Shown here: positions 29,957 to 44,142 of the stretch, piece after piece
Position numbering within the stretch: position 1 is the stretch's first letter
Layout: every line of letters begins with the position of its first letter
From: Christiangramia sabulilitoris
GTDB lineage: Bacteria; Bacteroidota; Bacteroidia; Flavobacteriales; Flavobacteriaceae
Assembly: GCF_007050985.1 (NCBI RefSeq)
Contig: NZ_VHSF01000003.1
Span: forward strand, 221,500 to 285,499
Direction: 5' to 3'
Length of the DNA stretch: 64,000 bases
Notes under the pieces: model-generated
Database searches by the model: none
What the model saw: the letters and a program-made list of their open reading frames with translations, nothing else
What the model was told of the DNA's origin: nothing
Translations under genes and position numbers: made by a program

Positions 29957-30095
29957 CGTTATCAAAAAAAGAAGACAGGAAAGAATTCTTGTTTGTTATC
30001 TATCCGAGACTGAACTCAGTAGAATGTAGCACCTTCTCCAAAGGAGGGTTGCTAAGGTTTCACAGGGTCTATTCCCTCAACCTTTCTTGATAACG
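29957..30095 (-). promoter_or_regulatory. SAM-I (S-box) riboswitch controlling metH-metF
   Basis: On the minus strand the aptamer spans 30095-29995: P1 GTTATC/GATAAC, the conserved core TCAAGAAAGGTTGAGGGA, ACCCTGTGAAACCTTAGCAACC and the P3/P4 region ending CGGATAGATAAC. It lies 54 bases before the start codon. A second GATAACG (29965-29957, TTGATAACG) close to the start can form nine perfect pairs with the 5' P1 strand (CGTTATCAA, 30095-30087), so P1 has a competing partner. I see no strong terminator, so translation or early-elongation control is more likely than simple termination. Confidence 0.92.
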
Positions 30096-30123
30096 ATTGT
30101 TAGTAAACAATGAACTTACTGGG

Positions 30124-35571: not shown

Positions 35572-35611
35572 AAAAAAGTCCTTTTAGGTGGATCACTTAA
35601 AAGGACTTTTT
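35572..35611 (-). terminator. Attenuator terminator between cysN and sir
   Basis: On the minus strand AAAAAGTCCTTTTA, an 11-base loop, TAAAAGGACTTTTT: a perfect 14-bp stem with a U-tract. The segment CTTTTAAGTG (35603-35594), in the 5' arm and loop, can pair with CACTTAGAAG (35643-35634) at the leader ORF stop codon over ten pairs with one G-U, giving a competing antiterminator. Confidence 0.85.
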
Positions 35612-35636
35612 ATAATTCAGTTTATAAAATAGGCTT

Positions 35637-35684
35637 CTAAGTGTGAGGCGAATAGCACATACACATATTAGACAAAATGTTCAT
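35637..35684 (-). CDS. Met/Cys leader peptide upstream of sulfite reductase (15 residues)
   Basis: ATG at 35684, TAG at 35639-35637, encoding MNILSNMCMCYSPHT. The MCMC run occupies residues 7-10. It starts 27 bases after the cysN stop and ends 25 bases before the attenuator hairpin. No promoter was found between cysN and the leader, so it probably tunes read-through from cysDN into sir according to Cys-tRNA and Met-tRNA charging. A ribosome at the stop codon would cover the antiterminator strand. Confidence 0.75.
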   Translation of the reverse strand: MNILSNMCMCYSPHT

Positions 35685-41913: not shown

Positions 41914-43206
41914 TTAAACCAATGATCTCTTTTTAATTTGGGCGAAAGCTTCTTTTAGATCAGACTTAAGATCTTCCACATCTTCCAATCCAACAGATAA
42001 CCTGATTAGATCTGGAGTCACTCCCGTAGACGCCTGCTCCTCCTCGGTTAACTGCTGATGCGTAGTACTCGCCGGATGAATAATTAGAGATTTGGTGTCC
42101 CCAATATTGGCGAGCAAGGAAAATACCTTAGCTTCATCTACCACAGTTTTTGCAGCTTCAAACCCGCCTTTCACCCCGAAGGTCACAAGTCCGCTTTGGC
42201 CCTCTGGCAGGTATTCTTTAGCCAGTTTATAATATTTACTGTTTTCAAGCCCCGGGTAATTCACCCATTCCACTTCTTCCTGCTCCTGAAGCCATTTCGC
42301 CAGTTCCAGGGCATTTTTACTGTGCTCTTTGATCCTGATCTTTAAAGTTTCTAGTCCCTGAATTATCTGGAAAGCATTGAACGGACTCAAGGCCGCACCG
42401 TAATCCCTTAAGCCTTCAATTCTAACCTTGGCAATAAAGGCTGCTTCCTCAAGAGCTTCGTGATAAACCAGGCCATGATAACCTGGAGAAGGCTCGGTGA
42501 ATTCAGGGAATTTTCCATTGGCCCAGTCAAAGTTCCCGGCATCGATGATCGCTCCACCCAGGGCAGTTCCGTTACCATTGATATATTTCGTTAGTGAATG
42601 CAGCACTATATCTGCACCATGCTCGATAGGGTTCAGCAGATATGGAGTAGCGACCGTGTTATCCACAATAAATGGAACTTTGAAAGCTTTTGCTTCTTTT
42701 GAAATGCCTTTAAGATCCAGCACATCAAGTTTTGGATTCCCCACAGATTCAGCAAAAAATACTCTTGTATTTTCCCGGGCTGCTTTGGTAAAATTTTCAG
42801 GATCTGTAGGATCTACGAAGGTGGTGGTAATGCCCAGGCGAGGCAGGGTATTCTTGAAAAGATTGTAAGTTCCGCCATAAAGACTATTCGAGGAAACTAT
42901 GTGATCCCCTGCTTTTAATAGAGTTAGCAACGCCGTACTGGTTGCAGCTGTTCCCGAGGCGGTAACTACTGCGGCTATCCCACCTTCCAGTGCCGCCAGT
43001 CGCTGCTCAAGAATATCCAGGGTTGGATTATTGATCCTGGTGTAAATAAATCCCGGTTCGGCTAATGAAAAAAGATTAGCGGCATGGTCTGAATTATTGA
43101 ACACGTAAGAAGTGGTCTGATAAATTGGAACTGCTCTGGTTCCTCCGTTCTGTGTAACATCGTGTCCTGCATGTAAAGCCTTGGTTGAAAAATTTTTAGT
43201 ACTCAT
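41914..43206 (-). CDS. metY: O-acetylhomoserine sulfhydrylase (MetY)
   Basis: 430 residues, the length of the larger OAH-sulfhydrylase subclass. The start STKALHAGHDVTQNGGTRAVPIYQTTSY, PLP-contact VTASGTAATSTALLTLL, DNTVATPYLLNPIEHGADIV and PLP-Lys HSLTKYINGNGTALGG are diagnostic. It makes homocysteine (or methionine) from O-acetylhomoserine and sulfide (or methanethiol). It is first in the minus-strand Met/Cys cluster and lies behind two tandem Met/Cys leader attenuators. Confidence 0.95.
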   Translation of the reverse strand: MSTKNFSTKALHAGHDVTQNGGTRAVPIYQTTSYVFNNSDHAANLFSLAEPGFIYTRINNPTLDILEQRLAALEGGIAAVVTASGTAATSTALLTLLKAGDHIVSSNSLYGGTYNLFKNTLPRLGITTTFVDPTDPENFTKAARENTRVFFAESVGNPKLDVLDLKGISKEAKAFKVPFIVDNTVATPYLLNPIEHGADIVLHSLTKYINGNGTALGGAIIDAGNFDWANGKFPEFTEPSPGYHGLVYHEALEEAAFIAKVRIEGLRDYGAALSPFNAFQIIQGLETLKIRIKEHSKNALELAKWLQEQEEVEWVNYPGLENSKYYKLAKEYLPEGQSGLVTFGVKGGFEAAKTVVDEAKVFSLLANIGDTKSLIIHPASTTHQQLTEEEQASTGVTPDLIRLSVGLEDVEDLKSDLKEAFAQIKKRSLV

Positions 43207-43241: not shown

Positions 43242-43280
43242 AAAAAAGTCCCCTTGATTTGCTATTACCAGGGGGACTTT
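43242..43280 (-). terminator. Attenuator terminator directly upstream of metY
   Basis: On the minus strand AAAGTCCCC, an 18-base loop, GGGGACTTTTTT: a 9-bp stem plus U-tract, 36 bases before the metY ATG. The loop contains GGTAATAGCAAAT (43269-43257). Leader segment GCTATTACC (43331-43323) pairs with the loop over nine bases. An identical GTAATAGCAAAT (43386-43375) just before the leader start can pair with the same leader segment. This gives 1:2, 2:3 and 3:4 alternatives. Confidence 0.86.
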
Positions 43281-43305
43281 ATGAATTGAATATTTTAACC
43301 AGATT

Positions 43306-43374
43306 CTAAATTCTCAAGTTTTGGTAATAGCTACGCATGCGACACATACACATCACGTCCATACACATCATCAT
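43306..43374 (-). CDS. Met/Cys leader peptide, metY-proximal (22 residues)
   Basis: ATG at 43374, TAG at 43308-43306. The peptide begins MMMCMDV, continues MCMCRM (residues 8-13) and ends RSYYQNLRI: seven Met and three Cys among the first 13 residues. Such density by chance is very unlikely. Stalling in this run would mask the upstream GTAATAGC copy and free GCTATTACC (codons 14-17) for antitermination. It precedes metY by about 100 bases. Confidence 0.86.
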   Translation of the reverse strand: MMMCMDVMCMCRMRSYYQNLRI

Positions 43375-43462
43375 ATTTGCTATTACTCTATTTTTCATTT
43401 TTTGCTTTTATACTTTGGCTTCCCTTCGCCTGAGCTCCGAGTTACGTTAATTCAATTTTTTA

Positions 43463-43492
43463 AGAAATCCTTCGACTACGCTCAGGATGACA
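43463..43492. repeat. Short dispersed repeat between the two metY attenuators
   Basis: AAATCCTTCGACTACGCTCAGGATGACA, a version of the common Bacteroidota intergenic element TCATCCTGAGCGTAGTCGAAGGAT. It separates the tandem attenuators. Confidence 0.7.
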
Positions 43493-43503
43493 ATTTCGGG
43501 TAC

Positions 43504-43536
43504 AAAAAAAGCCGCTACGGTTGGCAGCGGCTTTTT
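43504..43536 (-). terminator. First attenuator terminator of the metY leader
   Basis: On the minus strand AAAAAGCCGCT, loop GCCAACCGT, AGCGGCTTTTTTT: 11-bp stem and U-tract, 22 bases after the first leader ORF. Leader segment GCAGCG (43578-43573) can pair with CGCTGC (43529-43524) in the 5' arm and loop. At six pairs this antiterminator is weaker than in the other three. Confidence 0.85.
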
Positions 43537-43557: not shown

Positions 43558-43626
43558 CTATGCAATAGAATGCGCTGCGGAGTTTTCCGGCATCATACAC
43601 ATCATATTACAAATTCTACTGATCAT
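43558..43626 (-). CDS. Met/Cys leader peptide, promoter-proximal (22 residues)
   Basis: ATG at 43626, TAG at 43560-43558. The peptide begins MISRICNMMCMMPEN and ends SAAHSIA: five Met and two Cys, clustered in residues 6-12. It is the first ORF after a good promoter, and its stop lies 22 bases before an intrinsic terminator. Same length (22 residues) as the second leader but different in sequence. Confidence 0.77.
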   Translation of the reverse strand: MISRICNMMCMMPENSAAHSIA

Positions 43627-43645: not shown

Positions 43646-43677
43646 CAAAGATATGCACGGAAATTTTTAATATCCAA
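43646..43677 (-). promoter_or_regulatory. Promoter of the metY leader
   Basis: TTG (43677-43675), a 21-base spacer and TATCTTTG (43653-43646) on the minus strand, 19 bases before the first leader ATG. No second promoter was seen between the two attenuators. Confidence 0.75.
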
Positions 43678-43990: not shown

Positions 43991-44004
43991 TACCCAACAT
44001 ATTG

Positions 44005-44073
44005 AAAGGGATAGATTTGACTGATTGCAACCCTATTATACTTTGAAGAAGTATTTTAAAATGCTAAAGCAGA
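44005..44073 (+). promoter_or_regulatory. Probable SAM-II riboswitch upstream of metK
   Basis: The sequence has the ordered SAM-II hallmarks: P1 AGGG (44007-44010) with CCCT (44031-44034), the loop text ATTTGACTGATTGCAA, and downstream AATGCTAAAGCAG (44060-44072), whose CAG and GC can pair with CTG and GC of the loop to form the H-type pseudoknot. A small hairpin (ATACTT/AAGTAT, 44039-44054) is inserted between P1 and the pseudoknot strand. It lies 70 bases before metK. Assigned by eye to the family known mainly from alpha-proteobacteria and Bacteroidota; P1 is short, so a covariance-model check matters. Confidence 0.68.
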
Positions 44074-44142
44074 ATGTATACTACACTCCACTTAGCTCTT
44101 CACGTCAAATTTTTCCATTCTTATAATTAAAAAAGTAATTGA

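Follow-up and report, generated by a model that had tools for sequence, protein, structure and literature searches.

Putative tandem trp-type attenuators with methionine and cysteine codons upstream of metY in Christiangramia and other Bacteroidota

Enterobacterial attenuators of the trp/his/thr type combine a short ORF, in which codons for an amino acid of the pathway occur, with protector, antiterminator and terminator hairpins that exclude one another and with a U-run; for methionine genes the known means of control include MetJ/MetR-type regulators, SAM riboswitches (SAM-I senses SAM by means of an aptamer) and T-boxes. Control by a trp-type attenuator that reads Met and Cys codons would be one more solution for methionine genes, in a phylum where few attenuators have been worked out. 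For Flavobacterium psychrophilum, which belongs to the same bacterial family as the organism studied here, 'strong clues' for leader-peptide attenuation 5' of amino-acid biosynthesis operons have been described, with pheA and hisG among the conserved structured 5' elements (PMC9723704); the words 'methionine' and 'metY' are absent from its main text. Short ORFs with runs of Cys codons lie 5' of sulfur genes in actinobacterial cys operons (PMC1262725); unlike the leaders reported below, these have no conserved terminator hairpin, and no conserved RNA structure is given for methionine operons, in the portion of that article accessible to us. Two short ORFs within a single leader are found in the tandem attenuators of Salmonella mgtCBR, where control is thought to be transcriptional (PMC3641672, partial text); that operon encodes Mg2+ transporter and virulence functions, whereas the leaders described here carry the same codon types in both ORFs and precede sulfur amino acid genes. 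The methionine 5'UTR of Xanthomonas (PMC6230763, partial text) was set aside as a comparator because its authors note a similarity to the SAM-I aptamer. We found no Met/Cys leader-peptide attenuator in Bacteroidota in the open-access literature; the supplementary list of PMC9723704 was not covered, and priority is therefore uncertain.

The window analyzed here (the whole stretch of 64,000 nucleotides from Christiangramia sabulilitoris) contains, judging from sequence and comparison, two Met/Cys leader attenuators in tandem 5' of metY (Table 1). We consider it very probable that these are ribosome-mediated (trp-type) transcription attenuators acting in series, probably on one transcript, and that their targets are metY and, probably, the genes for sulfur assimilation and methionine that follow it; this is not backed by expression, ribosome or probing data. 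What sequence and comparison supply are the ORFs, the codon enrichment, the alternative helices, the distance from control codon to helix, a promoter-like box restricted to leader 1, the gene association and an exchange with SAM-I riboswitches. Like the trp/his/thr type, the leaders have short ORFs with pathway codons, mutually exclusive hairpins and a U-run; they differ in using both Met and Cys codons, in occurring in Bacteroidota, in forming two units in series and, for leader 2 of Christiangramia, in an antiterminator that takes up mainly the terminator loop. The sequence-only reading of this DNA had proposed one attenuator before metY; that interpretation is supported but was incomplete, given that two attenuators stand in series there and a third lies inside the sulfur cluster. 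We take the gene to be metY from its position beside a metX-like gene and from general knowledge of the family.

Table 1. Coordinates of the predicted attenuator units and associated features in the window
Feature	Positions	Strand	Description	Basis
Bacteroidota-type promoter (putative)	43646..43677	-	TTGG 43677-43674, 20 nt, TATCTTTG 43653-43646; 19 nt 5' of leader 1 ATG	sequence
Leader 1 ORF, MISRICNMMCMMPENSAAHSIA then stop	43558..43626	-	control codons N-M-M-C-M-M	own terminator downstream
Leader 1 segment 1, TGTAAT	43606..43611	-	partner ATTGCA 43566-43561	window fold and covariation
Leader 1 segment 2, GCAGCG 43578-43573 and ATTGCA 43566-43561	43561..43578	-	within ORF end	
Leader 1 segment 3, CGCTGC	43524..43529	-	common to antiterminator and terminator	
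Terminator 1	43504..43536	-	13-bp hairpin and T-run	fold; 7 core pairs covary
Leader 2 ORF, MKNRVIANMMMCMDVMCMCRMRSYYQNLRI then stop	43306..43398	-	inner ATG at 43374	flagged in 23/24 Christiangramia loci
Leader 2 segment 1, GTAATAGC	43379..43386	-		1:2 swap test
Leader 2 segment 2, GCTATTACCA	43322..43331	-		own-versus-swapped 2:3 pairing
Leader 2 segment 3, TGGTAATAGC	43261..43270	-	mainly terminator loop, plus last base of the 9-position 5' arm	
Terminator 2	43242..43280	-		fold; both-side change in 2 pairs
metY-type gene (Cys/Met metabolism PLP enzyme)	41914..43206	-	first gene past the attenuators	Pfam PF01053
Leader 3 ORF, MNILSNMCMCYSPHT then stop	35637..35684	-	between cysN-like and sulfite reductase-like ORFs	
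Leader 3 segment 2, CACTTAGAAG	35634..35643	-	partner CTTTTAAGTG 35603-35594	
Terminator 3	35572..35610	-		sequence; motif in 20/28 loci searched

Leader 2 corresponds to the ORF that the sequence-only reading had singled out. Direct inspection bears out its description: the minus-strand ORF MMMCMDVMCMCRMRSYYQNLRI has 22 codons before its stop, with seven Met and three Cys among the first 13; the 12-mer GTAATAGCAAAT occurs at both 43386-43375 and 43268-43257, and GCTATTACC at 43331-43323; and the terminator before metY folds as a 9-bp helix (AAAGTCCCC/GGGGACTTT), continued past a C-A mismatch by four further pairs, with a T-run to 43242. Translation more likely begins at an in-frame ATG at 43398 (30 codons, starting MKNRVIANMMMCM) than at the inner ATG at 43374, because in relatives a similar extension is likewise open in this frame, although this inference from sequence does not settle the matter. 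Among all ATG-started ORFs of 10-70 codons on both strands of the window, only leader 1 and this ORF contain at least six Met/Cys codons in 10, and only this ORF contains at least seven, a density that no ORF attained in 10 three-mer shuffles (at a threshold of five in 10 there are four window ORFs, compared with 0-3 per shuffle).

In leader 1 the control zone contains on average 4.2 Met and 1.9 Cys codons (n = 74, of which seven lack Cys), and in 70 of these 74 copies 11-12 nt separate the end of the last clustered Met/Cys codon from the antiterminator, a spacing that matches the downstream reach of a stalled ribosome. In leader 2 the corresponding distance varies more, being 5 or 11 nt in 59 of 72 copies. 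Rows without the anchor motif were excluded, leaving 74 of 76 leader-1 and 72 of 85 leader-2 copies for the spacing measurement and 67 of 85 for the leader-2 1:2 swap described below. Within 75 nt upstream, a TAnnTTTG box is present in 56 of 76 leader-1 copies (4.05 expected from mononucleotide shuffles), mostly 18-22 nt from the ATG, as against 3 of 84 leader-2 copies (2.4 expected); a strict two-box pattern is found in only 18 of the 76 and 1 of the 84. The presence of a promoter-like box 5' of leader 1 but not of leader 2 indicates that both attenuators are probably carried on one transcript. The promoter call in the window relies on what we take to be the Bacteroidota consensus. Relatives differ in the length of the spacer that separates terminator 1 from leader 2 (43399-43503); this spacer contains an apparent dispersed repeat, GTCATCCTGAGCGTAGTCGAAGGAT.

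We evaluated the leader 1 helices by covariation in 46 diverse sequences, using 500 shuffles per helix. The antiterminator 2:3 (GCAGCG with CGCTGC) has 98.5% of cells paired and 22 double-change cells, with a score of 0.234 (shuffled mean 0.084); the seven core pairs of the terminator 3:4 have 100% of cells paired, 41 double-change cells and a score of 0.358 (shuffled 0.155); and the protector 1:2 has 87.0% paired, 19 double-change cells, change on both sides in five of six pairs and a score of 0.266 (shuffled 0.163). For none of the three did any of the 500 shuffles match the covariation score or the percentage paired, and slid controls were only 25-54% paired. At one 2:3 position A-U, C-G, G-C and G-U all occur, and all 39 distinct sequences are paired there. 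For 2:3 and 3:4 two cruder measures do not stand out: the number of pairs with both-side change was matched by 94 (2:3), 39 (3:4) and 11 (1:2) of 500 shuffles, and the number of further pair types by 182, 133 and 31, respectively.

An alignment-free comparison pairs each ORF with its own terminator or with a swapped one (179 ORF-terminator pairs, sorted by peptide pattern into 80 of class 1 and 99 of class 2, or 76 and 85 after deduplication; a few leaders are possibly misplaced). The mean 2:3 energy is -14.3 kcal/mol with the own terminator versus -11.6 when swapped for leader 1 (76 copies), and -14.2 versus -12.1 for leader 2 (85 copies), with 0 of 2000 permutations in either case. For 1:2 the values are -9.0 versus -7.2 kcal/mol in leader 1 (68 copies; 0/2000) and -8.2 versus -7.0 in leader 2 (67 copies; 0/2000), with 14 of 2000 for the 17 Christiangramia copies alone. 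The outer part of the leader 1 antiterminator by itself (2b:3b) is weak (-4.0 versus -3.6 kcal/mol; 2/2000 permutations). No covariation or swap control fully removes shared ancestry.

Folding of the window RNAs gives alternative structures of the same kind. Without the upstream part and without segment 4 the antiterminator forms in both leader 1 (-14.2 kcal/mol, z -2.56) and leader 2 (-16.9 kcal/mol, z -2.71; a 10-bp 2:3 helix). When the 5' part is included, the pre-terminator RNA of leader 1 folds into 1:2 (z -2.02) and its full RNA into 1:2 plus the terminator (-42.4 kcal/mol, z -5.56). The minimum for the pre-terminator RNA of leader 2 is 2:3 and not 1:2 (z -1.31), which leaves termination in the absence of translation less certain for this leader; as far as a computed fold can tell, this speaks against a strong protector in leader 2. 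In all these predictions the terminators beat the antiterminators once segment 4 is present, so that antitermination must be kinetic.

The mutually exclusive pairings proposed by the sequence-only reading for leader 2 fared unequally. Its 2:3 helix is backed by the own-versus-swapped pairing and by several pair types (strands GCTATTACC/GGTAATAGC; within segment 3, TGGTAATAG is unchanged in 24 of 24 aligned loci). The 1:2 pairing does exist and passed the swap test, but its register shifts and not every locus keeps it: among 17 Christiangramia loci, 13 duplexes are strong (-7.8 to -14.2 kcal/mol), three are lost and one is cut by a contig end. The location of the 2:3 helix in the terminator loop, earlier remarked on as odd, holds for Christiangramia and Salegentibacter, but in Flavobacterium and others it involves the terminator arm, with or without the loop. 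In Flavobacterium-type loci the helix joins CCAAA to TTTGG in the terminator arm, in Christiangramia it joins GCTATTACCA to TGGTAATAGC, which is mostly loop, and others use both; on these sequences the loop-located helix is best described as a lineage-specific slide.

The arrangement has what a trp-type attenuator would need: pathway-amino-acid codons in a short ORF, a predicted intrinsic terminator between ORF and gene, an antiterminator 2:3 mutually exclusive with that terminator, a protector 1:2 that frees it (clear in leader 1, less so in leader 2), and control codons positioned to leave segment 2 free under a stalled ribosome. Translation and stalling, the identity of the tRNA that is sensed, the kinetics and how termination responds, also to Met/Cys limitation, are inferred. 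In the proposed sequence of events, polymerase would leave the promoter and a ribosome would start the leader ORF. With Met-tRNA and Cys-tRNA charged, the ribosome would reach the stop codon and cover segment 2, allowing the terminator 3:4 to form; with Met-tRNA (or Cys-tRNA) in short supply, it would stall on the run of ATG/TGY codons and mask segment 1, leaving segment 2 free for segment 3 and the terminator blocked. If there were no translation, 1:2 would pair and the terminator would form. Polymerase would have to pass both attenuators, and placing two attenuators for one signal one behind the other could make repression multiplicative or the response sharper.

The window's metY is 99% identical to its best match among named records, from Christiangramia gaetbulicola. 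In the genus set (24 Christiangramia metY loci) leader 1 is found at all 23 loci with sufficient upstream sequence, and leader 2 was flagged at 23 of 24, being eroded in one (L018); indels in the control zones are mostly multiples of three. A covariance model of leader 1 matched 81 of 397 family genomes at E <= 1e-3, many of the weak matches being bare terminators. Inspection by eye of the best 30 of these matches identified 24 with a Met/Cys leader, metY being the next large ORF in 20 of the 24, and rejected six as false (L052, L057, L058, L061-L063); weaker matches beyond the best 30 were not counted as real. The nearest 80 named metY loci (Christiangramia, Salegentibacter, Flavobacterium, Kordia and others) include 72 in which one or more Met/Cys ORFs fall within 900 nt, and 34 in which two are present; such an ORF lies 5' of metY in F. 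psychrophilum (L177). Conservation of the Met/Cys codons in relatives, whose absence would have counted against the sequence-only reading, was found, although it is patchy in the family.

To this a broad family sample adds 135 loci, seven of which were left out for lack of an identified metY start (L010 and L020 in the genus; L091, L096, L116, L123 and L137 elsewhere), so that 22 genus and 106 other loci remained (genome G033 is represented twice, as L028 and L100). Outside the genus, 12 of 106 loci exceeded the threshold, 10 of them leader-like by eye (L143 and L163 looked like chance matches), compared with none on the antisense strand and two in a three-mer shuffle. The figure of 10 in 106 is a lower bound, since the threshold misses leaders that are real by eye (L054); most metY loci in this sample have no Met/Cys leader. 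Beyond the family, 346 genomes of the order gave five matches at E <= 1e-4, all of which we inspected: one before metY (G574) and one before PAPS reductase-like genes (G058) are convincing, one before a gene that is metX-like by eye (G037) is probable, and two (G608, G628) are false. Among 345 genomes of the class there were four matches outside the family, comprising two convincing cases (two leaders 5' of metY in G921, and a leader in G1039 before a gene that by eye resembles the sulfite reductase of the window) and two false ones (G816, G887). Outside Christiangramia, then, Met/Cys leaders are patchy in Flavobacteriaceae and rare beyond the family.

Several loci have one leader only (L046, L054, L056, L125), indicating that the tandem layout is not essential, and leaders also occur at other genes: PAPS reductase-like genes in L269, a metX-like gene in L044 and, in genus g147, serine acetyltransferase and cysteine synthase-type genes (L275, Pfam) and a TonB receptor (L276), all three preceded by relatives of leader 1. 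Judging by the leaders, g147 appears to be Flavobacterium (L275 as in L242; L074 as in L226). In L276 (1257-4533) the TonB-dependent receptor gene has leader 1 on its 5' side and is separated from metY by leader 2, an arrangement that suggests that the receptor imports a sulfur compound. In L269 (540-797), from another family, two leaders stand 5' of the PAPS reductase-like genes, the second of them rich in Cys codons; codon make-up may thus follow the pathway.

The SAM-I riboswitch (RF00162) occupies the same place 5' of metY in many relatives and likewise serves control of methionine synthesis, although the site in the window has no aptamer match. We scanned 40 of the 94 leaderless metY loci and found, upstream and on the metY strand, SAM-I in 36, SAM-II in two and neither in two; three more leaderless named loci have SAM-I. 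At the leader-bearing loci scanned (17 + 17), SAM-I lies upstream of metY in 0 of 34; three leader-bearing loci have it downstream of metY. On a quick metY tree of 53 rows (54 were chosen, and L020 was dropped for want of a protein reading) the leader and SAM-I states require four changes, at least three of them forced by well-supported (starred) branches. We regard it as likely, with less assurance than for the tandem pair itself, that Bacteroidota possess a class of leader-peptide attenuators that senses Met and Cys through tRNA charging, often stands as two in series before metY, has copies at cysteine, sulfate and sulfite-reduction genes, and has repeatedly exchanged with SAM-I on the same gene, the signal changing from SAM to charged Met/Cys-tRNA. 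Such recurrent exchange would constitute a natural experiment on why SAM is sensed in one lineage and tRNA charging in another. One locus (L044) has a Met/Cys leader followed directly by SAM-I before its metX-like gene, that is, two different sensors in series.

Conservation of the ORFs, taken alone, is also compatible with their encoding functional peptides (for example metal-binding ones; Met/Cys-rich peptides are able to bind Cu(I)) or ligand-triggered arrest peptides, with the terminators doing no more than separating them from metY. We consider this very unlikely, because the residues past the control codons follow the RNA pairing (Ala-Ala, Ala-Glu, Ala-Gly and Ala-Arg shift with the terminator arm), because one RNA motif, CCGCAGAGG, encodes (S)AE in the frame used by some lineages and PQR in that used by others, and because most of the inspected associated genes serve Met/Cys synthesis (metY in 20/24). 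Met/Cys richness is kept while Met and Cys swap positions, and past the control codons it is, on these comparisons, the RNA and not the peptide that is under selection. Even less credence can be given to an uncharacterized metabolite riboswitch (for SAM, Met or Cys) with incidental ORFs. The leader RNA is structured, and SAM-I controls metY in many relatives; against this, no Rfam family is over threshold at the site, the parts conserved by eye are codons, the stop position and simple complementary segments without a large aptamer core, and the constant 11-12 nt from codon to helix fits a ribosome. The Rfam scan gave no match to the SAM-I or SAM-II covariance models between 43200 and 43720, no T-box among its matches, and only 23.3 bits for Thr_leader at leader 1 (cut-off 55).

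It is somewhat less implausible, though still unlikely, that only one leader functions and that the other is a decaying duplicate, as the eroded leader 2 of L018 and the single-leader loci might suggest: both leaders are conserved in the genus, both 2:3 pairings beat all permutations, and two Met/Cys ORFs are present in 34 of 80 named loci. The reading that we prefer is that the Met/Cys leaders represent a real and conserved attenuator system without an Rfam family, whose predicted mechanism is well supported by comparison and not by experiment.

The ORFs 3' of metY on the same strand resemble metX, a second Cys/Met PLP enzyme, an Rrf2-type regulator, PAPS reductase, cysD, cysN, sulfite reductase, siroheme genes and metH (names other than the Pfam matches were assigned by eye, and co-transcription is not shown). 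Within this cluster a further Met/Cys ORF precedes sulfite reductase in 22 of 23 Christiangramia genomes at a looser threshold than that for leaders 1 and 2 (at least three Met/Cys in eight codons); it was not found in L296, and the survey excludes L309-L312, where the gene start was not found. The 2:3 duplex of this leader 3 is predicted in 20 of 28 loci, those with the terminator motif, and is nearly invariant; with almost no covariation, its swap test falls short of significance (the observed mean is attained in 518 of 2000 permutations). We classify it as a third, weaker attenuator of the same kind.

Other regulatory RNAs are present in the window. A SAM-II riboswitch (44001-44077, plus strand) lies 5' of the divergent metK, and a SAM-I riboswitch (29993-30096, minus strand) lies 5' of the metH-like gene at the end of the sulfur cluster. 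That gene is split into two ORFs (29941-28925 and 28922-26244), and a Flavo-1 RNA (RF01705; 26055-26147, minus strand, 43.3 bits) is located just 3' of it.
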